Part shown: positions 26,244 to 29,363 of the stretch, one piece after another
Layout: each line of letters begins with the position of its first letter
How positions within the stretch are numbered: position 1 is the first letter of the stretch
Assembly: GCA_018650845.1 (NCBI GenBank)
Contig: JABIFF010000016.1
Span: 150,571 to 214,570, forward strand
Source: Chloroflexota bacterium
GTDB lineage: Bacteria > Chloroflexota > Dehalococcoidia > Lucifugimonadales > Lucifugimonadaceae
Direction of reading: 5' to 3'
Length of the DNA stretch: 64,000 nt
Notes under the pieces: model-generated
The model's input: only the letters and a program-made list of their open reading frames with translations
Database searches by the model: none
Told to the model about the DNA's origin: nothing
Program-made: the position numbers and the translations under genes

Positions 26244-27209
26244 CTAAAGATTCGAAACATCGAGATCGAGAGAGTTCATCAGGTCGTCGAGTTCAGCTCG
26301 AGTGTCATCGCCAATTGGTGGACTAGGTGGTCGTACGTCGGCGGTGGTGATGAAGCCTCGTCGCTTCATGATCTCTTTTCGAATTGCGAGACTGATGCCT
26401 GCCGAGTTTTCGTAGCGAATGATAGGTATCCACTTATAGAAGAGTGCTCGCGCTCGTTCGATTTCGCCTTCAGAGATGTATTTGTGCATTGCGACCAGAA
26501 CTTCAGGGTAGGCAAAACCGGTCATTGTTCCGATTGCTCCGCGCTGAAGCTCTTCGAAAAGGAATGCGCCGCCGAGTCCACCGAAAATTCCCATCGAGCC
26601 GTCAGTGGCGTCGAGAACACGGGTGATTTTTTGGGGAGTTGGTGGGTCTTCTAGCTTGAGATATTTCGCATCGGGAAGTTCAGCGTGAAGTTTGCCGATG
26701 AACGCAGGGTCAAGATGTACTCCGGTTACGTCGGGCAAATCTTGAACCACGATAGGAATTTCGGTCGTTTCCTGAGCCGCTGCGTAGTAGGCGTATGTAG
26801 CTGGCTGGTTTGGCTTTGCCATTTTTGCGGGAGCGATCATTACTGCGGTCGCACCTGCCGATTGGGCGTCACGGACTCTCGATACCAACGCACGACCGCT
26901 TTCAGCGCTTGCGCCTACGGTAACGGTTAGATCATCGCCGGCTGCGGCTACTACCGCGTCGATGATTGGTGCTCGCTCGGCGTCAGTTAGTCGGTGAGCT
27001 TCGCCCATGACTCCTAGCGTTACGACTCCGGTGCAGTTTGCCGATCGTGCTGCGCCTAGCAGCCTTTTGAATGAATCGATATCGACATCACCGTTGGCGT
27101 CGAACGGAGTCGGCAACATGAAATGAATTCCGTCTAGTTTTCGTTCATCTGCCAATTCGGATAACTCCTGAATGTCGTTGATTGCTAAGGGCTGGCTAAT
27201 TGAAGCCAT
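26244..27209 (-). CDS. Dihydrodipicolinate synthase family protein
   Basis: HFMLPTPFDANGDVDIDSFKRLL..GVVTLGVMGEAHRLTDAER..YLKLEDPPTP. Start taken at MASISQPL; the 56-aa upstream extension does not look family-like. Confidence 0.85.
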   Translation of the reverse strand: MASISQPLAINDIQELSELADERKLDGIHFMLPTPFDANGDVDIDSFKRLLGAARSANCTGVVTLGVMGEAHRLTDAERAPIIDAVVAAAGDDLTVTVGASAESGRALVSRVRDAQSAGATAVMIAPAKMAKPNQPATYAYYAAAQETTEIPIVVQDLPDVTGVHLDPAFIGKLHAELPDAKYLKLEDPPTPQKITRVLDATDGSMGIFGGLGGAFLFEELQRGAIGTMTGFAYPEVLVAMHKYISEGEIERARALFYKWIPIIRYENSAGISLAIRKEIMKRRGFITTADVRPPSPPIGDDTRAELDDLMNSLDLDVSNL

Positions 27210-27305
27210 GCGTATGGTGACCAAGTTCTGCGGCGTTCGCAAGATGCGTTGATAGTAGTTTGGCATTGTGCGATACACCAATGTGAGCCAGATGAGTGCT
27301 AGAAT

Positions 27306-27429
27306 CCCTGCTAATGACGAACACGTACGTAATGAACATTTGCTGTTGTACTGGCTGCTAAGCAGGGCCGGGCGCAATGACGCGTGATCGATTCAACCCT
27401 GCCTCCTTTTGAAACGGCAGGGTTTTTTT
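27306..27429 (+). promoter_or_regulatory. Candidate transcription attenuator upstream of the siroheme reductase
   Basis: CCCTGCT (27306-27312), AGCAGGG (27361-27367), AACCCTGCC (27395-27403), GGCAGGGTTTTTTT (27416-27429): each segment complementary to its neighbour(s), the last pair being an intrinsic terminator. Confidence 0.6.
27395..27429 (+). terminator. Intrinsic terminator in leader region
   Basis: AACCCTGCC-12 nt-GGCAGGGTT followed by T-run, about 70 nt before the ORF at 27499. Confidence 0.8.
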
Positions 27430-27498
27430 ATTGAATTTTCGTACGGGAATAGTATTTGAGAGCGTATTCGCACTCAAAGGTGAAAGAGGATCTAAACG

Positions 27499-29289
27499 GT
27501 GACCACTGGAAGAGTTGATACGAAAGACTGGATTCCAAATCCAGACAACGCTCATGTGCTGAAGATTGATGGGCCTGAGATAGCTCATTTCGAGGATCAG
27601 GTGAAACTGTTCCAGGCGGGTGAGAAGGACGAGGTCGAGTTCCTTAGGTTCCGATTGCGTCAGGGTGTGTACGGTCAGCGTCAGCCTGATGCTCAGATGA
27701 TTCGAGTCAAGCTGCCTTTCGGTGGCGTAACGGCCGATCAGATGGATGTTCTTGGTGAAGTGGCCGAAAAGTACGCTCCTCTTAAGAAGGGCCACATCAC
27801 TACTCGAGAGAATGTGCAGTATCACCATGTTCCCCTTGCTGATTCGACCGATCTGCTGAGGGCGCTTGGCGATGCGGGAATGTCGACTCGTGAGGCTTGT
27901 GGAAACGTTGTTCGTAACGTAGTAGCTGCACCTTCAGCAGGTGTTGCTAAAGATGAAGCGTTCGATGTAACTCCTTACGCTGCGGCATACGCTCGGTACT
28001 TCTTACGACACCCAACTACGCAGAACATGCCTCGTAAATCGAAGGTTGCTTTCTCGGGTTCGGAAAAAGATGAAGCAATGGTGCTGATGCACGATGTTGG
28101 CATGATCGCTCGAATTCAGGATGGCAAGCGCGGTTTCAAGATTGTTGTCGGTGGTGGTCTTTCAACCAACGCAATGATGGCCAAGACGCTTCGAGAGTTC
28201 GTTCCTGCTGAAGATTTGATCAAGAACTGTGAAGCTGTGCTTCGTGTGTTCAATAATCAGGATGAAGAGCGAAAGAGCATTGCTAAGGCTCGAATCAAGT
28301 TCACGATTACCCGACTCGGTATCGACAAGTTTCGAGAGATGGTTGATGAAGAGCTTGCTGGCGATTGGGCGAACAAGGAAATTGATCTCGAATCGTTGAT
28401 GTTTGTCGATGATGAAGAGGCTGATGCTCCTGCTGTGCCTTCTGATGCCACTCCTGAGCCTGCCGACGATGCTGCTTACGCTAACTGGAAGCGCACTAAC
28501 GTTGAGGCTCAGCGACAGGATGGCTTCAACCTTGTCTACATTCGTGTAGAGCGTGGTGATGTTTACGCTAACCAGTGGTCGCAGCTTGGAGATATAGCTC
28601 GTAAGTTTGCTGGAGGTCGTGCTCGACTCGATCAGCAGCAGAACTTGGTTTACCGCTGGGTTCGCGACGAGTCGTTGTTCGACATGTATCAGGCTCTTGG
28701 GGCAATTGGTTTCAGCGCGGCGGGTCGAGAGACCATTCGTGACGTTGTTACCTGCCCGGGTACCGATTCTTGCAAGCTGGGTATTACTTCTTCAATGGGC
28801 TTGAACAAGGCTCTTGGCGAGACTCTCGACGGCATGGGCGATCTCGACCCGCTGGTTGAGAAGATGCACATTAAGGCGAGTGGTTGCCCGAACTCTTGTG
28901 GTCAGCACCACATCGCTAGCATCGGTTTCCACGGTGCTGTTGTGAAGGGGCCTGGCGGACAGGTTCCGGCTTACGAGCTGTTCCTCGGTGGACGATCGAA
29001 CGAAGCCGGTGGCACGAAGATTGGTGAACGAGTGAAGGCTCGTATTCCAGCCAAGCGTGCGCCTGAAGCGTTGAAGGCTGTTCTCGATACCTATCTTGCT
29101 GAGCGCAATGATGGTGAAGAGTTCGCTGACTTTATAGATCGATTCGGTGTTGCTAAGTTCGAAGAGGAATTTGGCAAGCTGAAGGCAGAGCTTGGTCCTT
29201 TGGATCGAGACAATATTCAGACTTACATGGACTGGGGTAAGACCGTGGTCTACAAGCTGGAACGTGGTGAGGGTGAGTGCGCAGTTTAG
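27499..29289 (+). CDS. Ferredoxin-type nitrite/sulfite reductase (siroheme, 4Fe-4S)
   Basis: FLRFRLRQGVYGQRQ; HITTRENVQYHHVPL; TCPGTDSCKLGITSS; KASGCPNSCGQHHIASIGFHG. Confidence 0.93.
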   Translation: MTTGRVDTKDWIPNPDNAHVLKIDGPEIAHFEDQVKLFQAGEKDEVEFLRFRLRQGVYGQRQPDAQMIRVKLPFGGVTADQMDVLGEVAEKYAPLKKGHITTRENVQYHHVPLADSTDLLRALGDAGMSTREACGNVVRNVVAAPSAGVAKDEAFDVTPYAAAYARYFLRHPTTQNMPRKSKVAFSGSEKDEAMVLMHDVGMIARIQDGKRGFKIVVGGGLSTNAMMAKTLREFVPAEDLIKNCEAVLRVFNNQDEERKSIAKARIKFTITRLGIDKFREMVDEELAGDWANKEIDLESLMFVDDEEADAPAVPSDATPEPADDAAYANWKRTNVEAQRQDGFNLVYIRVERGDVYANQWSQLGDIARKFAGGRARLDQQQNLVYRWVRDESLFDMYQALGAIGFSAAGRETIRDVVTCPGTDSCKLGITSSMGLNKALGETLDGMGDLDPLVEKMHIKASGCPNSCGQHHIASIGFHGAVVKGPGGQVPAYELFLGGRSNEAGGTKIGERVKARIPAKRAPEALKAVLDTYLAERNDGEEFADFIDRFGVAKFEEEFGKLKAELGPLDRDNIQTYMDWGKTVVYKLERGEGECAV

Positions 29290-29325: not shown

Positions 29326-29363
29326 AAAAACGGGCGACTGCAATTCTGCGGTCGCCCGTTTGG
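29326..29363. terminator. Intrinsic terminator
   Basis: aaaaaCGGGCGACtgcaattctgcgGTCGCCCGttt. Confidence 0.8.

Follow-up and report, generated by a model that had tools for sequence, protein, structure and literature searches.

What controls the gene for the ferredoxin-type siroheme sulfite/nitrite reductase (NirA/SirA-like) located at 27499–29289 (+ strand) of the 64,000-nt stretch of DNA analyzed here (hereafter, the window), and which signal would such a control sense? A preliminary description of this region, made from the sequence alone, had outlined four alternately complementary segments upstream of the gene. It proposed that these act as anti-antiterminator, antiterminator, and terminator of a riboswitch, a leader-peptide attenuator, or a protein-controlled attenuator responding to sulfur or nitrogen status.

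The reductase carries the Pfam domains NIR_SIR and NIR_SIR_ferr, and scores beneath all NCBIfam equivalog cut-offs. Its nearest solved structure is that of Mycobacterium tuberculosis NirA (1zj8), an enzyme that acts as a sulfite reductase. The gene starts with a GTG at 27499, 69 nt 3′ of the U run of the upstream terminator, i.e., at the distance of about 70 nt already noted in the preliminary description. It stands alone as a single-gene unit, and a terminator-like hairpin lies beyond its end (about 29332–29359). An ortholog with 95% identity is found in Candidatus Lucifugimonas marina, a member of the same genus as the window’s genome (SAR202 cluster, Dehalococcoidia); in the cultured strain JH1073 of this species, the leader is located at L001:2799-2930. 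On the minus strand, a divergent DapA-family (DHDPS) gene spans 26244–27209 and scores below the dapA equivalog cut-off, with a near-palindrome, CCATGCGTATGG (27206–27217), lying over its likely start.

A conserved terminator and a competing antiterminator

All four strings were present exactly where they had been placed: CCCTGCT at 27306–27312, AGCAGGG at 27361–27367, AACCCTGCC at 27395–27403, and GGCAGGGTTTTTTT at 27416–27429, with segments 2–4 conserved in orthologs. As proposed, the last two form an intrinsic terminator (27395–27429, + strand), with a 9-bp stem (27395–27403/27416–27424), a 12-nt loop, a U run reaching 27429, and a local fold energy of −14.9 kcal/mol. In the genus alignment, 94% of cells were paired across this stem and both-sided changes were observed at three pairs, so that the stem covaries. 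The 5′ arm of the terminator, segment 3 (27395–27403, + strand), is common to terminator and antiterminator, and was supported by pairing tests both within the genus and across families. Its alternative partner is segment 2, AGCAGGGCCGG (27361–27371, + strand), the 5′ arm of the antiterminator. In the window, this 2:3 pairing is a 6-bp match with a local fold energy of −14.6 kcal/mol, and 83% of cells were paired over 14 genus members; within the genus, no significant covariation was detected for 2:3, though the pairing is conserved. Across families, we compared duplex energies with those of permuted partners, using one sequence for each of 18 lineages, which were treated as independent. The permutation counts were 0/5000 for 3:4 and 1/5000 for 2:3, so that both the terminator and the antiterminator of the preliminary description were upheld.

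The proposed anti-antiterminator was not. Pairing of CCCTGCT with segment 2 is a 7-bp match in this genome only and proved to be a chance match: it could not be told apart from pairing with random partners, either within the genus (51/500) or across families (2482/5000). The preliminary description had itself worried that a −10 element at this place would leave segment 1 outside the RNA, and rightly so: CCCTGCT (+ strand) lies between the −10 and the inferred RNA start, and we judged it to be outside the attenuator RNA. The true segment 1 is instead CTGGCTGC (27351–27358, + strand), which is made of the last codons of a leader ORF and is predicted to pair with segment 2 across the leader stop codon. 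It yielded 0/500 against random partners and 2/5000 permutations across families, and the genus alone provided no support for 1:2 pairing. The local fold energy of 1:2 in the window is −7.5 kcal/mol. The bare fold of the stretch is unexceptional (z −1.45) and its energy uninformative; the evidence for an attenuator is comparative.

A cysteine-rich leader ORF at the predicted RNA start

The leader ORF (27314–27361, + strand) has 15 codons, encodes MTNTYVMNICCCTGC*, and reads ATG ACG AAC ACG TAC GTA ATG AAC ATT TGC TGT TGT ACT GGC TGC TAA, the stop codon sharing the first base of segment 2. Both this ORF, which is Cys-rich and conserved in orthologs, and the predicted anti-antiterminator at its end were missing from the preliminary description. 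Three consecutive Cys codons, TGC TGT TGT (27341–27349, + strand), are the candidate control codons; a fourth Cys codon follows at 27356–27358, where relatives mostly have Arg. Over the last six sense codons and the stop, 51% of pairwise codon differences were synonymous in the ORF frame, vs. 10% and 31% in the two alternative frames, and TAA, TGA, and TAG interchange at the stop among relatives. In all 37 upstream regions positive for the device (see below), the Cys cluster starts 4–8 codons ahead of the stop, where stalling is predicted to lead to the highest 2:3 pairing. The presence of this ORF favors the leader-peptide option of the preliminary description over its riboswitch and protein-controlled options, and points to cysteine as what is sensed, in place of nitrogen or a ligand.

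The promoter position suggests that the ORF occupies the very 5′ end of its RNA. An extended −10 element, TGCTAGAAT (27297–27305, + strand), is retained as TGCTAnnAT in the genus alignment and is followed 8 nt later by the leader ATG, with transcription expected to start at about 27312–27314. Among the 37 positive regions, the median distance from the −10 end to the leader start codon was 9 nt. Two promoter styles independently point to an RNA start at the leader ATG: a perfect TTGACA at 17–18 nt in 17 of these 37 sequences and, in the window’s genus and in family f19, a TGC extension of the −10 in its place. Judging from the −10, the RNA should start at or beside the leader ATG (27314) and be leaderless. 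Leaderless genes are reportedly infrequent in Chloroflexi: 4 of 12 genomes had any, with a mean share of 4.7% among those four (PMC3160421). In the window’s genome, Shine-Dalgarno-like signals are general and constitute the main start signal, making leaderless initiation an exception there. The interval 27430–27499, in which the preliminary description considered that a promoter would speak against its reading, yielded no sigma-70-like promoter. Further upstream, 5′ of the extended −10, lies a block comprising TTTGGCATT..CACCAAT (27258–27283). It is shared by several members of the genus, which lack a −35 box, and could be an activator site or a piece of the divergent promoter.

Distribution across relatives and additional targets

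We next evaluated how widespread this arrangement is, searching upstream regions of orthologous reductases for a −10 box, a leaderless ORF of 6–30 codons whose last 10 residues include 2 or more Cys, and a terminator within 115 nt. Overall, 37 of 108 distinct upstream regions were positive, including 24 with at least 3 Cys, while dinucleotide shuffles (20 rounds) gave means of 0.05 and 0, respectively. The same criterion applied to other amino acids reached at most 12 (Ala, Thr), and some of these Ala and Thr scores probably ride on the same Cys ORFs. Leaders within the genus mostly end in CCCTGR or a close variant, and those of other families include MNIAVTMCACCCRP, MKFGFNFTILTCCCCRKM, MSINYSFNCCCSL, MAHTAFHQVCACRCGP, and MKLCFRPNCAC. 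The device was detected in about 14 of the 24 families sampled in the order under the strict criterion (16 when relaxed), as well as in one further family of the class (L105). It was absent from several families of the order and from most other families sampled in the class, and a further 18 genomes sampled in the phylum had none. In the sister genus g11 (L014–L018 and L041), the reductase comes with no leader of this kind, and some members of the window’s genus (L010, L020, and L013) keep the Cys peptide without a recognizable terminator, so that the device seems to have been lost in places.

Within genomes of the genus, the element is typically unique. On both strands of the whole window genome (2,477,300 bases), the criterion of at least 3 Cys was satisfied at one place, the window’s locus. 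When genus members were searched with a covariance model built from genus leaders, with matches judged at E ≤ 0.1, all but G001 contained a copy, usually a single one upstream of the reductase; other relatives gave no match at this threshold. In G001, the reductase is only a remnant, and the leader was lost together with the gene. G012 has two copies: its reductase is broken by internal stops, yet the leader remains, and a second Cys leader, MNIYSLNICSCTGC, with its terminator lies directly 5′ of an O-acetylhomoserine/O-acetylserine sulfhydrylase gene (L269:1439-2659, contig 40). Neither the window’s genome, for the sulfhydrylase as a second target, nor the sulfhydrylase orthologs of other genus members yielded a match to the leader model, and the second G012 copy may be a local recruitment. 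In G369, the leader MVIWYSGICECCCPS heads an apparent operon (L275:218-1900, minus strand, contig 30) comprising genes for a siroheme synthase N-terminal domain, a uroporphyrinogen-III methyltransferase, and the reductase. These targets all belong to sulfur assimilation or the synthesis of its cofactor, in favor of a cysteine signal.

Predicted effect of ribosome position

If the leader is translated, the position of the ribosome should determine which hairpin forms. We computed the pairing of the terminator 5′ arm before segment 4 emerges, for RNAs cut at the downstream edge of the ribosome, which was assumed to lie 15 nt beyond the first base of the P site. With the first Cys codon of the cluster in the A site, antiterminator pairing averaged 0.68, compared to 0.31 at the stop (Wilcoxon, 1.6e-9) and 0.53 for shuffled spacers (1.6e-5). 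Codon by codon, the mean over 20 representatives peaked at 0.74 six codons before the stop, and decreased to 0.29 at the stop and 0.35 without a ribosome. For the window alone, pairing dropped from 0.73, for stalling at the first Cys, to 0.10 with the ribosome at the stop and to 0.05 for ribosome-free RNA; the shuffled-spacer test reached only p 0.08 here. Antitermination is thus predicted while a ribosome is stalled on the Cys codons, whereas a finished or ribosome-free leader is predicted to lead to termination. In this model, this is the three-state logic of a classical attenuator.

Mechanism and alternative explanations

From these patterns, the element is very probably a transcription attenuator of the classical, ribosome-mediated kind, which responds to cysteine through a leaderless leader peptide and controls an assimilatory sulfite reductase. 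The ORF and its coding signature, the Cys placement, the promoter position, the terminator, and the antiterminator are established by sequence and comparison; from them, we infer the transcription start, leader translation, stalling, a cysteine response, and the direction of this response. The first transcribed base would be the A of the leader ATG (27314) or one adjacent to it, and a ribosome would load at the 5′ terminus while the RNA is still being made. When Cys-tRNA is scarce, the ribosome would stall at 27341–27349 and cover the true segment 1, leaving segment 2 free to pair with segment 3, so that the terminator would be blocked and the reductase made. When Cys-tRNA is plentiful, the ribosome would proceed to the stop codon and cover segment 2, 3:4 would form, and the RNA would end near 27429. 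If no ribosome is present, 1:2 would form, again allowing termination.

The same Cys-rich ORF might sense cysteine but act mainly on translation of the reductase, with the terminator playing a secondary role. Such a scheme has a precedent in leaderless Cys-rich ORFs of mycobacteria (PMC4633059), which the ORF resembles and which are cited elsewhere as translation attenuation (PMC13236596). Here, however, a conserved and covarying intrinsic terminator with a U run separates ORF and gene, and the antiterminator competes with exactly this hairpin. The Shine-Dalgarno-like AGAGG of the reductase (27485–27489, + strand) lies outside the attenuator, about 60 nt beyond, and in none of its predicted stems. 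We thus consider a mainly translational control very unlikely.

Slightly less credible still is that the peptide itself is the product, i.e., a metal, thiol, or redox sensor acting in trans or through arrest upon Cys modification, rather than through Cys-tRNA supply. Leader peptides do include up to five Cys within 14–18 residues, and redox status has been raised as an option for mycobacteria (PMC4633059). However, the Cys spacing differs by family (CCC, CAC, CACCC, CVC, CCTC), as do all other residues. With only the presence and position of Cys kept, the pattern fits control codons and not a binding site.

We give even less weight to a metabolite riboswitch or a protein-controlled attenuator, either of which would account for the existence of a terminator and an antiterminator. 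An Rfam search returned no match at the gathering score, in line with the preliminary description, which had recognized no known riboswitch consensus; moreover, the RNA 5′ of segment 2 is mostly ORF, leaving little space for an aptamer, and it is codons that are conserved there. Finally, the least plausible reading is a small RNA that is independent of the reductase, running from a promoter of its own to its own terminator, while the reductase is served by a separate promoter. The top sub-threshold Rfam matches do belong to small RNAs that end in a terminator (anti-hemB, E 0.005), but these fall far under their gathering scores and rest chiefly on the terminator, no promoter-like site was found between terminator and gene, and the ORF frame is under coding constraint.

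Relation to known attenuators and significance

Classical amino-acid operon attenuators (trp, his) combine control codons, mutually exclusive 1:2, 2:3, and 3:4 pairings, and default termination without a ribosome. The cysteine attenuator proposed here shares the control codons and, by prediction, the exclusive pairings and the ribosome-free termination, and differs from them in its cysteine signal, its assimilatory reductase target, and a leader predicted to lack a 5′ untranslated region. A second point of comparison is provided by the leaderless polycysteine ORFs of mycobacteria, which are reportedly cysteine-responsive, as stated in the title of Canestrari 2020 (doi 10.1111/mmi.14498).

These mycobacterial short ORFs are leaderless (PMC4633059), and, as in the window, their Cys codons are near the stop and they precede sulfur-assimilation genes. 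The leader peptides of mycobacterial cys operons have Cys runs and no conserved terminator hairpins (PMC1262725), in contrast to the conserved intrinsic terminator and competing antiterminator found here, in a different phylum. A further comparison is uORFC-8-2, found exclusively before cysS in Rhodobacterales (PMC8632094), which is predicted to attenuate in response to Cys and has tandem Cys codons and a U-run terminator. It resembles the present element as a predicted ribosome-mediated attenuator with these same features, but its target is cysS in Alphaproteobacteria and its first stem holds the Cys codons; here, the target is a siroheme sulfite reductase, the leader is predicted to lack a 5′ UTR, and the predicted 1:2 stem begins after the Cys cluster. 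The element is similar to both the mycobacterial ORFs and uORFC-8-2, yet fully fits neither description.

The combination, target, and lineage look new; no paper on Cys leaders in Chloroflexota, or on cysteine feedback of this kind in the SAR202 lineage, turned up in the literature covered, which includes few subscription journals. Overall, the data probably reflect an order-wide family of complete cysteine attenuators, with an RNA starting at a leaderless ATG, that control assimilatory sulfite reduction in SAR202-type Chloroflexota, and that either arose separately from the polycysteine ORFs of mycobacteria or share a remote ancestry with these. Such a family would join in one device two things known apart, i.e., leaderless polycysteine ORFs and terminator-bearing Cys attenuators, and would imply that, when translation begins at an AUG at the very 5′ end, the ribosome can become coupled to RNA polymerase early enough for attenuation. 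Such a family would also point the role of an otherwise ambiguous reductase to cysteine synthesis, i.e., sulfite, rather than nitrite use, and would explain how cysteine could feed back on sulfur assimilation in a deep-ocean lineage of which few members have been cultured.
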